Source: a virus
IMG/VR virus record: IMGVR_UViG_3300025674_000021
Span: 37,707 to 101,706 of that record
DNA length: 64,000 nucleotides
Reading direction: 5' to 3' (one strand)
Position numbers and translations under genes: made by a program. The notes under the pieces were generated by a model. The model had not been told where the DNA came from, did no database searches, and worked only from the letters and a program-made list of their open reading frames with translations. Below, one piece after another: positions 29,205 to 38,009 of the stretch (position 1 is the first letter of the stretch; each line of letters opens with the position of its first letter).

Positions 29205-29804
29205 ATGAAAAACCTTTCAGATTATGTAAAAGTTTACGATAATGTGCTTCCAAAAAGCATGTGTGAATACATCATTCGAAGATTTGAATTGAGTGATAAG
29301 AAAGAAGAAGGGATTCCTGGAACTCCAGATGGACCTGTAGATAATGGTTGGAAGAAAGATATGGAAATTGCCATATCATCTCAACCAGAATTTAGAGAAA
29401 TTGATAACTTAATATATGAAAAACTTTCTCCATATTGTGATAGATATATTTCAGAAATGAATAGTATGTTCTGTGAAGAACCAATGCTTGGGGGAACGTA
29501 TTCAGATACTGGTTATTTGATTAAAAGATATGACGTTAATGATGGATGGTTTCACTGGCATCATGATAGTTGTGTAGAAGATTATGGACGTTCATATCGA
29601 TTTGCTGGAATCATCTTTTACTTGAATGATGTATATGAGGGTGGTAAAACTGAGTTTTCTTTTGGCACTACTATTGCTCCAGTAACTGGACGACTTGCTA
29701 TATTTCCAGCATCTTGGCAGTTTATGCATAGAGGAGCAGTTCCTTTAAGCAATGTGAAATATATAATCACAAGTTTTTTGCATATGCCTAGTGCTAGTTA
29801 TTAA
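29205..29804 (+). CDS. 2OG-Fe(II) oxygenase, prolyl 4-hydroxylase type
   Basis: 199 residues. Iron ligands HxD in FHWHHDSC near residue 120, and distal His in WQFMHRGA; FYLNDVYEGGKTEF and GRLAIFPASW are typical of the P4Hc fold. These enzymes hydroxylate proteins or small molecules using 2-oxoglutarate and O2. It follows hsp20 by three bases and is the first of three such genes within 6.6 kb. Substrate unknown. Confidence 0.9.
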   Translation: MKNLSDYVKVYDNVLPKSMCEYIIRRFELSDKKEEGIPGTPDGPVDNGWKKDMEIAISSQPEFREIDNLIYEKLSPYCDRYISEMNSMFCEEPMLGGTYSDTGYLIKRYDVNDGWFHWHHDSCVEDYGRSYRFAGIIFYLNDVYEGGKTEFSFGTTIAPVTGRLAIFPASWQFMHRGAVPLSNVKYIITSFLHMPSASY

Positions 29805-30478: not shown

Positions 30479-30698
30479 TACAGTCCTCGTAACCGAAGTT
30501 GAAGCGATTGAACCTGATAACCCAGGAGAACCTGAGTGTGAACTCACCAAACCCTATGAGATTGATGAGGAGGGTGAACTCACTCCATGGCCAAGAGGTT
30601 CTGAAGGAAATGTTATGAGAGTTCACTCTTACAACATTTTGACTATGGTAGATGCAAAGGCAGACATTGTTGCCAAGTACAAAGAGCTTACATCCTGA
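30444..30698 (+). CDS. Sm-like small protein, second copy before gp43
   Basis: 84 residues. IKCILLGVDTVLVTEVEAIE, TKPYEID, ELTPWPRG, SYNILTMVDAKADIVAKYKE. A divergent relative of the preceding gene, overlapping it by 35 bases and overlapping gp43 by one base, so probably translated in a coupled manner. Tandem placement suggests gene duplication or a heteromer. Confidence 0.6.
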   Translation: MKEIKCILLGVDTVLVTEVEAIEPDNPGEPECELTKPYEIDEEGELTPWPRGSEGNVMRVHSYNILTMVDAKADIVAKYKELTS

Positions 30699-31984
30699 TG
30701 CGATTTTACACAAACGTTCAAATGGTCGGGGATCACTTCTTGGTCCGTGGTTATGAAAATGGAAAGCATTTCATGACTCGGGAGAAGTTTTACCCAACTC
30801 TCTTCGTGCCTTCTAAAAAGAAGACAAAATATAAAACATTAGAAGGTGATCACGTTGAAGCAGTTCAACCAGGAACAGTTCGTGACTGTAGGGAGTTCAT
30901 AAAAAAGTACGAGGGTGTGCAGAACTTTAAGATCTATGGTAACACCCAGTACATCTATCAGTACATTTCTGAGATGTACCCTGAAGAAATCATCAAGTTT
31001 GATACTAGTAGAATCAAAATTACTACTATTGATATTGAGGTTGCATCTGAGAATGGATTCCCAGATGTAGAATCTGCTGCAGAAGAAGTTCTTTTGATTA
31101 CAATTCAAGATTACACGAATAAGCAGATTCGTACATGGGGTCAAGGACCTTTTAAGAATACTCAGGAGAATGTAATTTATACTGAGTGTGATTCTGAGTT
31201 TGATCTTCTCACTAAATTTATCAACTGGTGGATGATGGAAGAAAATATCCCTGAGGTTGTTACAGGATGGAACAACGAATTGTACGATATGCCGTATCTG
31301 GTTCGTCGTATGGATCGAGTTCTTGGAGAAAAACTTATGAAAAGAATTTCTCCTTGGGGTCTTGTGACTGAGAGAGAAGTTTTTATCTCTGGTCGTAAGA
31401 ATATTGCATATGATATCGGTGGTATTACTCAACTTGACTATCTAAATCTCTACAAGAAATTTACATACAAGGCACAAGAATCCTATCGTCTGGATTACAT
31501 TGCTAGCGTAGAACTTGGACAGAAGAAACTTGATCACTCTGAGTTTGATACTTTCAAGGACTTCTATACAAATGGATGGCAGAAGTTTGTAGAATACAAC
31601 ATCATTGACGTGGAACTTGTTGACCGTTTGGAAGACAAGATGAAACTAATTGACCTTGCAATCACTCTTGCATATGACGCGAAGGCAAACTATGCCGATG
31701 TATCATCTCAGGTTAGGATGTGGGATACAATCATATATAACTATTTGAAGAAACAAAACATTGTTATTCCTCCGAAAGAAAAGTCGGAAAAAGACAAAAA
31801 GTATGAAGGTGCATACGTTAAGGAACCTACCCCAGGATCTTATGATTGGGTTGTAAGTTTTGACCTCAACTCTCTGTATCCACACATCATCATGCAGTAT
31901 GCAATCAGTCCAGAAACTCTAGTGGACATGAATAATTTAAATGCCAGAATTATGGAGTTAGAAGATGCTCTCCAAACCTATTAA
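30698..31984 (+). CDS. 43A: DNA polymerase gp43, N-terminal fragment (exonuclease and start of palm)
   Basis: 428 residues. Exo I TTIDIEVASE with D112/E114, the same positions as T4 gp43; Exo II GWNNELYDMPYL; Exo III YNIIDVELVD; palm motif A VVSFDLNSLYPHII with D389. The frame stops 18 residues after SPETLVD, before palm motif B. The remainder of the polymerase lies at 32543-33895 beyond an oxygenase gene. The fragment ends overlapping that gene by 20 bases. No decay is visible, so a functional split polymerase is likely. Confidence 0.92.
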   Translation: MRFYTNVQMVGDHFLVRGYENGKHFMTREKFYPTLFVPSKKKTKYKTLEGDHVEAVQPGTVRDCREFIKKYEGVQNFKIYGNTQYIYQYISEMYPEEIIKFDTSRIKITTIDIEVASENGFPDVESAAEEVLLITIQDYTNKQIRTWGQGPFKNTQENVIYTECDSEFDLLTKFINWWMMEENIPEVVTGWNNELYDMPYLVRRMDRVLGEKLMKRISPWGLVTEREVFISGRKNIAYDIGGITQLDYLNLYKKFTYKAQESYRLDYIASVELGQKKLDHSEFDTFKDFYTNGWQKFVEYNIIDVELVDRLEDKMKLIDLAITLAYDAKANYADVSSQVRMWDTIIYNYLKKQNIVIPPKEKSEKDKKYEGAYVKEPTPGSYDWVVSFDLNSLYPHIIMQYAISPETLVDMNNLNARIMELEDALQTY

Positions 31985-32540
31985 AATTAAAAATGTAGTA
32001 CCACAACATCTCTTTGATTCTCTTCAAGATGAATTTGATCATAGTGGATGGTCTCTGGGAAATAAATCGTATAATCAAAAATGGCAAAGAGATGGTTTTA
32101 CCCTGGCAGATTTGCCAGCAAATAGACCTATAATATTTAATATCGCTAGTTACATTAAATTAAAGATTCAAAGATACATAAAGCATGATTTGGCATTTAT
32201 TAGAGCTCATGTGAATGGGTATGTCTATGGTCAAACTGGAGGTTTTCACCAAGATTTTGTTGAGCATAGAACTTATACTTTTATAATGTTTACTCATGAA
32301 AACTGGAACATGCAGTGGGGAGGAGAGTTTGTATGCTATGATGAATCTGCACAGGATTACAAGTTCTTCCCAGCATTGCCTAATACAGGAGTTCTGATAC
32401 CTTCTGATTGGGATCATTACGGAGCTGCTCCAAATGAATATGCTAATTGTATGAGATCAACCATTGGATTCAGTTTTTGTGACCCAAGTATAAAAGAGTA
32501 CATGTCTGAAGTGTGTGCTCAAGTAAAATACTTCACCTGA
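31965..32540 (+). CDS. 2OG-Fe(II) oxygenase located between the two halves of gp43
   Basis: 191 residues, intact. HxD ligands in GGFHQDFVEHRTY, distal His in SDWDHYGAAP and the 2OG-binding Arg in MRSTIGFSF. WGGEFVCYD is the usual small loop. It is of a different subfamily from the oxygenases at 29205 and 35198. It overlaps the end of the polymerase N-fragment by 20 bases and ends two bases before the C-fragment start. Thus all three are probably translated from one mRNA. Confidence 0.9.
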   Translation: MLSKPIKIKNVVPQHLFDSLQDEFDHSGWSLGNKSYNQKWQRDGFTLADLPANRPIIFNIASYIKLKIQRYIKHDLAFIRAHVNGYVYGQTGGFHQDFVEHRTYTFIMFTHENWNMQWGGEFVCYDESAQDYKFFPALPNTGVLIPSDWDHYGAAPNEYANCMRSTIGFSFCDPSIKEYMSEVCAQVKYFT

Positions 32541-32542
32541 TT

Positions 32543-33895
32543 ATGTGGAAAGACGTTAAAAAAATGTCCAACGAAGAAATTCAATCTGAGTTGGAAAACC
32601 TAAAAAAAGTCAGGGAAATTTCTGCAAATGTCAATGTAGAAAAAATTCTTAATGAGGACATAGATCTTAGTCCTTTGAAAGAAGTCAATCTAACTATTGC
32701 TGCAAACGGAGCACTGTATCACAGGGTCCAGGGGTTTCTTCCACAGATTATGGAGAACCTATACGATGAACGAAAGGCATACAAGAAGAAAATGCTTGCC
32801 GCCGAAAGTCAGTATGAAAAGACGCCCACAAAGAAATTAGAGAAGGATATTTCTAAGTTCAATAACATTCAGATGGCACGAAAGATTCAATTGAACTCTG
32901 CTTATGGTGCTATCGGAAATCAGTATTTTAGGTACTTTAAGTTAGCAAACGCTGAAGCAATCACCCTTTCTGGGCAAGTTGCTGCTCAGTGGATTGAAAA
33001 TAGGATGAACAAGTACCTAAATAAACTGCTAGACACAGGAGATGCAGATTATGTCATTGCATCTGACACCGATTCAATCTATATTAATCTTGGACCTCTT
33101 GTTGATAAACTTTTTGGTCCTAAAAATGGTGACACGGCAAAAGTTGTTAATGTACTGGACAAAATCTGTGCGGAGCAGCTGGAACCGTTCATTGATAAGA
33201 ACTACCAGAGGTTGGCGGAGTATGTATCGGCGCATAAGCAGAAAATGCAAATGAAGCGAGAGTGTATCGCTGAACGTGGAATTTGGACTGCTAAGAAAAG
33301 ATACATTCTGAGTGTCTGGAATAGTGAAGGTGTTAGTTATCTGGAAAGTGGATATAAGTTGAAGATCAAAGGCATTGAGGCAATCAAATCTTCAACTCCT
33401 GCTCCGTGTAGAAAAATGCTTAAAGATTCCTTTCACATTTTGCTGAAGGGGACTGAAAGTGATGCGATTGAATTTATTGAGAAGTGCAGATCTGAATTCA
33501 AACAATTGAGTCCAGAAGAAGTTGCCTTCCCAAGATCAGTTTCTGATGTTAGAAAATATTACTCTTCGTCAGATATCTACACTAAAGGAACCCCCATTCA
33601 TGTGAGGGGAGCACTACTGTTTAATCACTATATCAAAGAGAATAAACTGGATAGAAAGTATTCTCTGATTCAGAATGGAGAGAAGATCAAGTATGTGTAC
33701 CTCAAAAAACCGAATATCATCAGGGAGAACGTGTTCTCCTTCATTCAGGATTTTCCTAGAGAATTGGGTCTTGACAAGTACGTTGACTATGACCTACAAT
33801 TTGAAAAGAGCTTTCTTGAACCTCTTAAGACCATCCTGAACTGTATTGGATGGTCACACGAAAAAACTGCTAACCTCGATTCATTTTTTACCTAA
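32543..33895 (+). CDS. 43B: DNA polymerase gp43, C-terminal fragment (fingers, palm motifs B/C, thumb)
   Basis: 450 residues from ATG 32543, two bases after the oxygenase stop. After a new-looking helical start (MSNEEIQSELENLKK) come the gp43 segments AANGALYHRVQGFLPQIMEN, motif B MARKIQLNSAYGAIGNQYF, motif C VIASDTDSIYIN, KKRYILSVWN and the thumb. The far C-terminus SFFT resembles the clamp-binding tail. Together with the N-fragment the length is 878, versus 898 in T4. All catalytic residues are retained across the two pieces. Confidence 0.93.
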   Translation: MWKDVKKMSNEEIQSELENLKKVREISANVNVEKILNEDIDLSPLKEVNLTIAANGALYHRVQGFLPQIMENLYDERKAYKKKMLAAESQYEKTPTKKLEKDISKFNNIQMARKIQLNSAYGAIGNQYFRYFKLANAEAITLSGQVAAQWIENRMNKYLNKLLDTGDADYVIASDTDSIYINLGPLVDKLFGPKNGDTAKVVNVLDKICAEQLEPFIDKNYQRLAEYVSAHKQKMQMKRECIAERGIWTAKKRYILSVWNSEGVSYLESGYKLKIKGIEAIKSSTPAPCRKMLKDSFHILLKGTESDAIEFIEKCRSEFKQLSPEEVAFPRSVSDVRKYYSSSDIYTKGTPIHVRGALLFNHYIKENKLDRKYSLIQNGEKIKYVYLKKPNIIRENVFSFIQDFPRELGLDKYVDYDLQFEKSFLEPLKTILNCIGWSHEKTANLDSFFT

Positions 33896-34066
33896 ATGGA
33901 ACTTCCTATCAACGACAAAGAACTTACCACAATTATTAGTGCATTGCGCCTTGGGGGAGATGCCGCTCTTTATCAAAAAATGAAATTGGTGCAGGAAATT
34001 AGAGATCAGAATCCCAATGGACCATACAAGAAAATTCTAAGGGAGAAGTATGGCATGGTCGCCTAA
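33896..34066 (+). CDS. Small hypothetical protein after gp43
   Basis: 56 residues (MELPINDKELTTIISALRLG...), helical and charged. Starts one base after the gp43 stop and overlaps the following small gene by 17 bases. Found in a tight replication operon; family not recognised. Confidence 0.6.
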   Translation: MELPINDKELTTIISALRLGGDAALYQKMKLVQEIRDQNPNGPYKKILREKYGMVA

Positions 34067-34217
34067 AATCGGTTATTGGACTCCTAATGATTTGTCAGAT
34101 AGTGAGTTACAATATTTGATGGATATATTGGAAAAGAATGATGAAGAATCAAAACTTTACAGTAAGTTTTGGTGTTGGAAAATGAACTACAGGAACAAAG
34201 ATCATGGACTTTCTTAA
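34050..34217 (+). CDS. Small Trp-rich protein overlapping uvsX
   Basis: 55 residues (MAWSPKIGYWTPNDLSDSEL...). It overlaps uvsX by 14 bases. Compact, acidic middle, Trp/Cys-containing end (FWCWKMNYRNK). Unknown function. Confidence 0.55.
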   Translation: MAWSPKIGYWTPNDLSDSELQYLMDILEKNDEESKLYSKFWCWKMNYRNKDHGLS

Positions 34218-35211
34218 AGACATTGTAAAAGAAATTGGTGGTGAGTATACACAACTAGCAGCGGATATCGATGAGCAAGAAGAATTTGTTGATACCGGTT
34301 CGTACATTTTTAACGGACTCGTTTCAGGTAGTATATTTGGTGGCGTATCTAGGAATAAGATTACTGCCATTGCTGGGGAGTCTTCTACTGGAAAAACTTT
34401 TTTCGCGCTTGCAGTTGTCAAGAACTTCTTGGATACCAATCCTGATGGTTACTGCATATATTTTGACACTGAAGCCGCTGTTAACAAATCTCTTCTTACA
34501 GATAGGGGTGTTGACCTAAATAGGACTATAGTAGTTAATGTCGTAACTGTAGAGGAGTTTCGTACTAAGGCACTTAAGGCGGTAGATATCTATCTGAAGA
34601 AATCTGAAGAAGAGCGCAAACCTTGTATGTTTGTGCTAGATTCTTTGGGTATGCTTTCCACTAATAAGGAGATTGAAGATGCTCTGAACGATAAGCAAGT
34701 TCGGGACATGACTAAATCACAACTTATTAAAGGAGCATTCAGGATGTTGACCCTCAAACTGGGTCAAGCAGATATCCCTATGATCGTTACAAACCATACT
34801 TATGATGTCATTGGTGCTTACGTTCCAATGAAAAAAATGGGTGGTGGTAGCGGACTTGAGTATGCCTCCAGTACAATTATTCATCTCTCCAAGAAAAAGG
34901 AGAAAGATGGAACTGAAATCGTTGGTAACATTATTAAGGCAAAAACTGCTAAGTCACGCCTTAGTAAGGAGAACAAAGAAGTTGAGATTCGCCTTTATTA
35001 CGATGAGCGCGGTCTTGATAGGTATTATGGTCTTCTTGAGTTGGGAGAAACCGGTGGACTCTGGAAGAATGTCGCCGGACGTTATGAAATATCTGGTAAG
35101 AAGATCTATGCAAAACAGATTCTAAAAGAACCTGAGGTATATTTCACTGAAGATATCATGAACAAGTTAGATGAAATTGCCAAAGAAACATTTAGTTATG
35201 GACACTCTTAA
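34204..35211 (+). CDS. uvsX: UvsX recombinase (RecA-like)
   Basis: 335 residues (T4: 391, so shorter). It catalyses strand exchange with UvsY and gp32. Walker A GESSTGKTFF lies near residue 60, Walker B CMFVLDSLGMLS, then VTNHTYDVIGAYVP. It sits directly after gp43 and before gp41, the cyanophage replication order. Confidence 0.96.
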   Translation: MDFLKDIVKEIGGEYTQLAADIDEQEEFVDTGSYIFNGLVSGSIFGGVSRNKITAIAGESSTGKTFFALAVVKNFLDTNPDGYCIYFDTEAAVNKSLLTDRGVDLNRTIVVNVVTVEEFRTKALKAVDIYLKKSEEERKPCMFVLDSLGMLSTNKEIEDALNDKQVRDMTKSQLIKGAFRMLTLKLGQADIPMIVTNHTYDVIGAYVPMKKMGGGSGLEYASSTIIHLSKKKEKDGTEIVGNIIKAKTAKSRLSKENKEVEIRLYYDERGLDRYYGLLELGETGGLWKNVAGRYEISGKKIYAKQILKEPEVYFTEDIMNKLDEIAKETFSYGHS

Positions 35212-35755
35212 TGATTTTATCAGGGTGCATGAAAATGCATTAGATTCTGATACATGTGATTTTTTGGTTCGGTTATTTATCCAAAAGAAAAGCAAAACAG
35301 AAAGAGTTGAGTGTGATGGTAAACCTAACTTCACTCAAATGAATCTCACCCAGAACAGAGATATGTCACCTCAGATTAATGAGGTGCATACTAATTTGAT
35401 TAGGGATGTATTCAAGTATCGTGACGAGTATTATCATTATACGTACAAAGAAATCTTTCCAGAGCAACATGCCTTTGAACAGTTTAGAATCAAAGGATAT
35501 GAACCTGGAGGTGTAGATAGATTCGATGCTCATGTAGATGTAAAGGATTATGAGTCATCACGTAGATTTCTTGCGTTCATGTGGTACTTGAATGATGTTG
35601 AATCTGGTGGCAGAACAATTTTCAATGATATGGAGATCACACCAAAGAAGGGATCTCTGCTAGTATTTCCTCCTCTTTGGATGTTTCCTCATATAGGTGA
35701 GCCACCAAAAAGTAACCCGAAATATGTTCTCACTACGTACTTACACTATCAATGA
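35198..35755 (+). CDS. 2OG-Fe(II) oxygenase, prolyl hydroxylase type
   Basis: 185 residues from MDTLNDFIRVHENALDSDTC; the ATG at 35198 matches the start of similar phage proteins better than the in-frame ATG at 35171 inside uvsX. HxD in FDAHVDVKDY, distal His in MFPHIGEPP, and K/R-type cosubstrate region KYVLTTYLHY. WYLNDVESGGRTIF is typical. Third oxygenase gene in this region; substrate unknown. Overlaps gp41 by four bases. Confidence 0.88.
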   Translation: MDTLNDFIRVHENALDSDTCDFLVRLFIQKKSKTERVECDGKPNFTQMNLTQNRDMSPQINEVHTNLIRDVFKYRDEYYHYTYKEIFPEQHAFEQFRIKGYEPGGVDRFDAHVDVKDYESSRRFLAFMWYLNDVESGGRTIFNDMEITPKKGSLLVFPPLWMFPHIGEPPKSNPKYVLTTYLHYQ

Positions 35756-37705: not shown

Positions 37706-38009
37706 AATTACAGTCGAAGATTATGAGAAGTATGGTAGTCAGTTCTTTGACAAATACTTCTATGTTGCAAAACAACTAGGTGAAGGAGCAAAGGCAGAAG
37801 ACATCCTAAAAATCATGGAGTCCCTTGGTGGGGTCGTCATGAAAAAACGAATGGAAGAAGAAGGTAAGATTGGTCCTTTTGGTTTCATCCGTGATCAAAT
37901 TGAAGTTAATGCAGACGGAGCACAAGTTATAGGAAATGCATTACAAGTCCCTCCAGGAACTGTTGCAATGCAAGATGAAAACGGTAAGTGGGCTGCTTAT
38001 GAACTCTAA
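37692..38009 (+). CDS. Hypothetical protein, 105 aa
   Basis: Starts MKDREITVEDYEKYGSQFFD. The ATG at 37692 is preferred over an in-frame TTG at 37677. Contains a helix pair (GEGAKAEDILKIMESLGGVV) and GPFGFIRDQ. No known family. It ends the replication-side operon before the tRNA-Leu. Confidence 0.55.
   Translation: MKDREITVEDYEKYGSQFFDKYFYVAKQLGEGAKAEDILKIMESLGGVVMKKRMEEEGKIGPFGFIRDQIEVNADGAQVIGNALQVPPGTVAMQDENGKWAAYEL

Follow-up and report, generated by a model that had tools for sequence, protein, structure and literature searches.

The window analyzed here, a stretch of 64,000 nucleotides of a marine cyanophage-like virus from the record IMGVR_UViG_3300025674_000021 (positions 37,707 to 101,706), is part of a record of 101.7 kb that is probably incomplete, and it carries the gene of a T4-type DNA polymerase, gp43, as two separate cistrons, 43A and 43B, with an intact gene for a 2-oxoglutarate- and Fe(II)-dependent (2OG-Fe(II)) oxygenase between them. 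We consider it quite likely that the break marks a homing-endonuclease site in gp43 at which an endonuclease gene split the polymerase long ago and the oxygenase gene, unrelated to it, has since taken its place. The same site occurs in related viral contigs in a series of states, split and unsplit alleles are scattered horizontally, the inserted cassette has a sharp boundary, and both polymerase halves are under strong purifying selection.

The divided polymerase and the gene between its halves

A preliminary description of this DNA, made from the sequence letters, had reported gp43 as broken in two around an intact oxygenase gene of 191 amino acids, and our coordinates agree with it, including the 20-base overlap of the oxygenase gene with 43A and the 2-base gap in front of 43B. 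The polymerase motifs that it had listed as retained were also recovered, i.e., the exonuclease domain and palm motif A in 43A and motif B (KIQLNSAYG), motif C (SDTDS) and the remainder in 43B. Alignment to four unsplit gp43 proteins, and to gp43 of phage RB69 via the unsplit relative L026, shows that the T4-type gp43 domains and motifs A, B and C are distributed between two chains, and Pfam models for the exonuclease (PF03104) and the polymerase (PolB, PF00136) score above their cut-offs, both in 43A and the latter also in 43B. Mapped through L026, the break corresponds to a position near RB69 residue 430, past motif A (D411) and ahead of the fingers. Little polymerase sequence has been lost, since homology to unsplit isolates extends up to ..SPET in 43A and picks up again near residue 30 of 43B. 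In S-SKS1 and S-SRM01, which are the closest isolates, gp43 is unbroken (84 and 83% identity to 43A, the former value for residues 1-408 of the S-SKS1 protein). Because motif A is in 43A and motifs B and C are in 43B, neither chain would be a polymerase alone, and the earlier conclusion that the halves would have to reassemble, with motif A in one chain and motif C in the other, is borne out by the alignment. The features of the locus are as follows.

30698..31984, + strand: 43A, N-terminal gp43 fragment of 428 amino acids with the exonuclease domain and palm motif A (Pfam, translation)
31862..31891, + strand: palm motif A, DLNSLYPHII, 43A residues 389-398 (translation; aligned to RB69 gp43 D411 via L026)
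31928..31984, + strand: 43A tail, MNNLNARIMELEDALQTY followed by the stop, first half of the native long loop
31954..31957, + strand: GGAG, likely ribosome-binding site of the oxygenase gene, 7 nucleotides before its ATG and inside the 43A frame (judged from the sequence)
31965..32540, + strand: 2OG-Fe(II) oxygenase gene, 191 amino acids, HxD...H and R intact (PF13640, phrog_274, alignment, model)
31986..32537, + strand: segment missing from the collinear contigs L010, L009, L244 and L246 (contig comparison)
32543..33895, + strand: 43B, C-terminal gp43 fragment of 450 amino acids from ATG 32543 (Pfam; conserved MWKD start)
32543..32632, + strand: N-terminal extension of 43B, MWKDVKKMSNEEIQSELENLKKVREISANV, consisting of the start peptide of the split forms and the second half of the native long loop
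32882..32908, + strand: motif B, KIQLNSAYG, 43B residues 114-122 (translation, alignment)
33065..33082, + strand: motif C, DTDSIY, 43B residues 175-180 (translation, alignment)

The last residues of 43A (QTY) and its stop overlap the oxygenase codons for K-P-I-K. In the oxygenase forms the 43A stop falls inside the Ile-Lys codons of an N-terminal PIxI motif, which is native to the oxygenase, because it is present in nearly all relatives, including ones far from gp43. At the other end of the gene, the restart of the polymerase by a new ATG was correctly recognized in the preliminary description, but the start that it had chosen (MSNEE) should be moved 7 codons upstream: 43B most likely begins with MWKDVKKM (ATG 32543), because MWKD is common to about 60 related junctions, a set retrieved with a pattern for this very start. 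This peptide opens 43B in all split forms used and is absent from the unsplit loops inspected; GTG 32513 and ATG 32564 are possible alternative starts.

The split gp43 lies where gp43 normally does, directly ahead of uvsX and gp41, and together with the Hsp20 gene upstream these neighbors form the usual cyanophage setting of gp43. An intact second gp43, which had been named as a finding that would overturn the description, was looked for: neither a second PolB polymerase nor a second exonuclease domain was found in the 101.7-kb record, and a copy beyond the incomplete record is conceivable.

The intervening gene encodes a non-nuclease enzyme, as originally proposed. Its product matches phrog_274 and Pfam PF13640, the latter with 29.6 bits just above the cut-off of 27, and the HxD, distal His and Arg described earlier are intact (H95-x-D97, H151 and R164, the last at the position of the 2OG-binding Arg, all invariant in the 18 aligned relatives). 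The label of phrog_274, 'DNA endonuclease V', seems to be a mis-annotation, as the matched members resemble 2OG-Fe(II) oxygenases. A predicted structure of fair quality (predicted local distance difference test [pLDDT], 76; predicted template modeling [pTM] score, 0.80) has its best Foldseek matches among 2OG oxygenases, e.g., SptF, PHD2 and P4H, at a template modeling (TM) score of about 0.6, and these model-based matches identify the double-stranded beta-helix fold, not the substrate. FlmC oxygenases are matched only weakly, with a score far under the cut-off of the model concerned. The nearest relatives outside gp43 adjoin Collar-domain tail-fiber genes and other 2OG oxygenases (PF13759), and no close relative was confirmed in the cellular genomes of 84,980 species. 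With low confidence, we regard the oxygenase as cargo that may act on the virion or on surface structures. Two more 2OG-Fe(II) oxygenase genes flank the region, at 29205-29804 and 35171-35755 of the window; the former is missing from the related contigs L010 and L246, where the gap is clean and has the size of a gene.

One break, many states

Searches of viral contigs, using both fragments as well as a DNA pattern that matches the 43B start, yielded 90 split loci. These comprise 63 distinct junctions, of which one lies at a different site and about 62 lie at the gp43 site of the window; L092 and L141, which are broken at a site in the fingers region, were excluded from these counts. A full-length HNH endonuclease gene of 188 amino acids (P0004; passing Pfam PF01844) is present at about 40 of the 62 junctions and a GIY-YIG-like endonuclease gene of 175 amino acids (P0005; matching the homing endonuclease family phrog_314) at about 10. 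Six junctions retain remnants of an endonuclease only, four have no recognizable gene, and two harbor an oxygenase; L121 shows an apparent deletion or frameshift. Besides the window, the oxygenase case is L200, a separate contig whose oxygenase is 53% and whose polymerase halves are 76 and 69% identical to those of the window, so that the search for the same oxygenase between gp43 halves elsewhere, suggested in the preliminary description, was successful. The two in-gap oxygenases form one clade (support 100/98) among relatives located elsewhere. The free-standing endonuclease gene that lies between the halves at about 50 related junctions is absent from the window; there is no HNH match in the 101.7-kb record, and the window, L010 and L200 show no remnant of an endonuclease. 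No isolate in a phage collection of 50,697 records closely matched the split start or these endonuclease genes, and the palm-loop split appears so far confined to uncultured viruses.

The HNH and GIY-YIG-like endonucleases have in common a similar helix-turn-helix segment (40-55 residues, 43-54% identical), which is found at one end of the protein in one type and at the other end in the second. A comparison of L011:4433-4996 (HNH) with L182:2180-2704 (GIY-YIG-like) gives the impression that the two nuclease types have exchanged a DNA-binding module. The Asp before the first His of the HNH motif is changed in some copies and remnants, e.g., L094:2654-3214 and L103:6286-6435 (EVYHIIP versus EVDHIIP), which are possibly inactive. 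Further genes accompany the endonuclease: a Dam-type DNA adenine methylase gene of 151 amino acids (PF05869; the L230 copy has an E value of 2.8e-30) comes after the HNH gene in L230 (10390-10845, between the HNH gene and 43B), L222, L211 and L195, and a small Cys-rich, zinc-ribbon-like frame of about 55 to 66 amino acids lies between the HNH gene and 43B in L186, L168 (4883-5083), L192 and L245. Judged by these methylase and Cys-rich genes beside the HNH gene, the gp43 site collects genes.

The end of 43A tracks the intervening gene, reading RIAELEKML in HNH forms, ELESML in GIY-YIG-like forms and ELEDAL plus two or three residues in oxygenase forms, each followed by the stop; all three kinds of gene abut the polymerase after the same ..ELE. 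The preliminary description had interpreted the tail of 43A and the start of 43B as related helices that had been duplicated or had evolved into a docking pair. This interpretation was rejected: the tail MNNLNARIMELEDAL and the SELENLKKVREI part of the C-terminal fragment's start align with the first and second halves of one native loop in the unsplit polymerases of L026 (ELNSRIAELESSGENDDELKSLKKVKEL) and S-CAM7 (DDLNIMIHNAQNDPSYDQEKLEAMLQVRQLS). The tail and the start could still pair, but would do so as the two pieces of a single old element. In most other unsplit polymerases inspected, the loop is short (26-28 residues). L026 (3741-6323) is itself the sister of the HNH-split L222 in both polymerase trees, amid other split forms, and its position there suggests that it may be a re-fused gene; its predicted structure (pLDDT of 48) was too poor to place the loop.

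The state in which the cargo has gone is represented by L010, L009, L244 and L246, the contigs nearest to the window, which align collinearly with it at a DNA identity of about 82-93% along most of each contig. They lack two oxygenase genes, the one within gp43 and, where the contig covers it, the one at 29205-29804. They retain about the first 21 nucleotides plus a TGA of the oxygenase frame, the oxygenase-type tail of 43A (DALQSY, then stop) and the letters TGATT before the start of 43B. Loss of the oxygenase by an internal deletion, with the split kept, is the probable explanation, stopping short of certainty because the retained stretch is short.

Mobility of the site and maintenance of the two halves

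The change between split and unsplit gp43 was reconstructed 16 times on the tree of the N-terminal half and 13 times on that of the C-terminal half, and a single clade of all split forms was rejected by the approximately unbiased (AU) test (p-AU of 4.5e-7 and 6e-4, respectively). In 90-nucleotide steps along the gene, identity between the unsplit gp43 of S-SKS1 and the HNH-split genes of L094 and L257 is mostly 80-100%, with a single dip to 42-64% over about 180 nucleotides at the insert. Such a sharp cassette boundary between near-identical polymerases is the pattern expected of homing with co-conversion, and the site concerned is the one that the window shares with its endonuclease-bearing relatives. 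The oxygenase-bearing polymerases are not sisters in the N-terminal half (p-AU of 0.0008 for grouping the window, L246 and L200), whereas the C-terminal half is compatible with this grouping (p-AU of 0.31); the polymerase of L200 groups with the HNH-split L180 in both trees. These trees, and the single clade of the two oxygenases, would fit a history in which the oxygenase was loaded into the cassette once and the cassette was then transferred; two loadings of close oxygenase relatives are possible.

Between the window and L010, the ratio of nonsynonymous to synonymous substitutions (dN/dS) is 0.043 for 43A and 0.066 for 43B; the short tail and start extension give about 0.08-0.10, based on small numbers. 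The low ratios indicate that both halves are constrained by purifying selection.

Our preferred explanation is as follows. A homing-endonuclease insertion site would lie in the palm loop of gp43 just after motif A, where a free-standing gene for an HNH or a GIY-YIG-like endonuclease, both of which have a similar helix-turn-helix domain, would insert and turn gp43 into two cistrons. Endonuclease cleavage and homing would spread the split allele by double-strand-break repair, co-converting about 200 bases of the adjoining polymerase gene. The lineage of the window would then have lost the endonuclease, and a 2OG-Fe(II) oxygenase gene, related to those of tail-fiber regions, would have come to stand in the same place, its first codons supplying the stop of 43A and translation of 43B starting at a separate ATG right behind the stop of the oxygenase gene. 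By analogy with known split polymerases, 43A and 43B would reassemble noncovalently into an active enzyme whose active site draws Asp residues from both chains, and the oxygenase would be cargo, working elsewhere. More tentatively, and with somewhat less than even confidence, the site can be generalized to a cargo-loading homing locus, in which non-nuclease genes (the 2OG oxygenase by itself, the Dam methylase or Cys-rich frame next to an HNH gene) would be acquired in the split, the cargo allele would move with the cassette from one phage lineage to another and be immune to the endonucleases, whose target would be destroyed, and the polymerase would permanently consist of two chains.

Several points weigh against this explanation. 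No intermediate with both genes was among the junctions found, so that the order of events, endonuclease first and oxygenase second, and replacement as opposed to insertion into an emptied split, are only inferred. Ordinary recombination could explain part of the scatter of split alleles. The partly pattern-based retrieval biases the set of junctions towards this split and would miss other starts, and its counts are not prevalences.

The best-surviving alternative, which we nevertheless regard as unlikely, is that an intact gp43 was split by insertion of the oxygenase gene itself, independently of the endonuclease splits. The missing remnants and the missing HNH match mentioned above are in its favor, but oxygenase and endonuclease forms are broken at the same position and have the long loop and the MWKD start of 43B in common, and the affiliation of L200 with an HNH-split polymerase also contradicts it. 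The preliminary description had similarly set the origin of the oxygenase split apart from homing-endonuclease splits, a distinction that is not supported, given the occurrence of the same break in many contigs together with HNH genes, GIY-YIG-like genes, remnants or almost nothing.

A role of the oxygenase as a functional partner, which binds or hydroxylates 43A or 43B or modifies DNA at the fork, is suggested by the translational overlap and the position of its gene, and DNA-modifying 2OG enzymes exist. We rate this role as very improbable, given that the relatives in other phages lie in tail-fiber regions away from gp43, that the four contigs without the oxygenase still have a split polymerase under selection and that the endonuclease forms manage without it. 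Slightly less probable again is that a split intein or a spliced intron reunites the halves, arrangements that are known around endonuclease genes in the form of fractured genes and introns in phage genes. A fractured gene with a split intein was rejected, as neither half has a Pfam intein match and each adds just about 18 to 30 residues that are alignable with the native loop; a group I or II intron was rejected, as there is no Rfam match at E values up to 1 over positions 30500-34300 and as 43A has its own stop and 43B its own start in all split forms compared. Although the contig is metagenomic and not complete, a chimeric assembly, or a decaying polymerase whose genuine counterpart lies at some other place, is hardly credible in view of the diverged oxygenase at the same place in the independent contig L200, which shows that the arrangement is no artefact of one assembly and makes chance or assembly error very unlikely as its source, the same split without the oxygenase in four contigs, the low dN/dS and the lack of a second PolB in the record.

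Relation to known split genes

A T4-type gp43 in two cistrons (43A/43B, with seg43) is likewise present in the Aeromonas phages 44RR and 25, and the halves of the Aeromonas phage enzyme co-purify and are active (reviewed in PMC2988022). In phage 25, a GIY-YIG-class endonuclease gene lies between the halves (PMC2988022), as at related junctions of the present site. The break of 44RR is located farther on, in the fingers region after MMLAA (43A of 498 amino acids), whereas it is found here in the palm loop, and no metabolic or modification enzyme has been described between the halves of these Aeromonas phage genes. Among cyanophages, gp43 of the ACG-2014f Synechococcus phages (GenBank KJ019091 and others) is also annotated as two DNA polymerase genes of 491 and 389 amino acids (L324, KJ019091.1 118400-122500), but with a break in the fingers region and two inserted open reading frames of 52 and 71 amino acids without a Pfam match; the break of L092 and L141, with overlapping frames, is related to this one.

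The pieces of the mobE-split nrdA of phage Aeh1 and of the mobA-split gene 60 of T4 form active enzymes (PMC2988022). In both cases a free-standing homing endonuclease splits an essential gene, as we propose here, although other genes are concerned and the endonuclease is still present, unlike in the window. Essential phage genes split around a free-standing endonuclease, with split inteins, were reportedly found in marine metagenomes by Dassa et al. in 2009; fractured genes of this type have an intein, which the window lacks, and no peptide ligation is expected here. 2OG-Fe(II) oxygenases occur in 14 of 16 cyanophage genomes (PMC3037559). The oxygenase of the window belongs to the same family (phrog_274), whose members lie outside gp43 and are inside it only in the window and L200.

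A search of a limited body of literature yielded no report of a split gp43 in cyanophages, of this site or of an oxygenase at it. Split gp43 genes as such were already known from Aeromonas phages and, unremarked, from the GenBank entries of ACG-2014f, as were splits of essential phage genes made by homing. New are the palm-loop site, its wide mobility and a non-nuclease cargo as its sole occupant. The contigs offer, for a single position in an essential enzyme, a natural series of unsplit, endonuclease-split and decayed states, of cargo in place and cargo lost, and possibly of re-fusion in L026. This makes it testable how selfish endonucleases leave lasting two-subunit enzymes and whether homing sites are entry points for accessory genes in marine phages. 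The site also provides natural two-piece T4-type polymerases that are broken in the palm, between the two catalytic aspartates.

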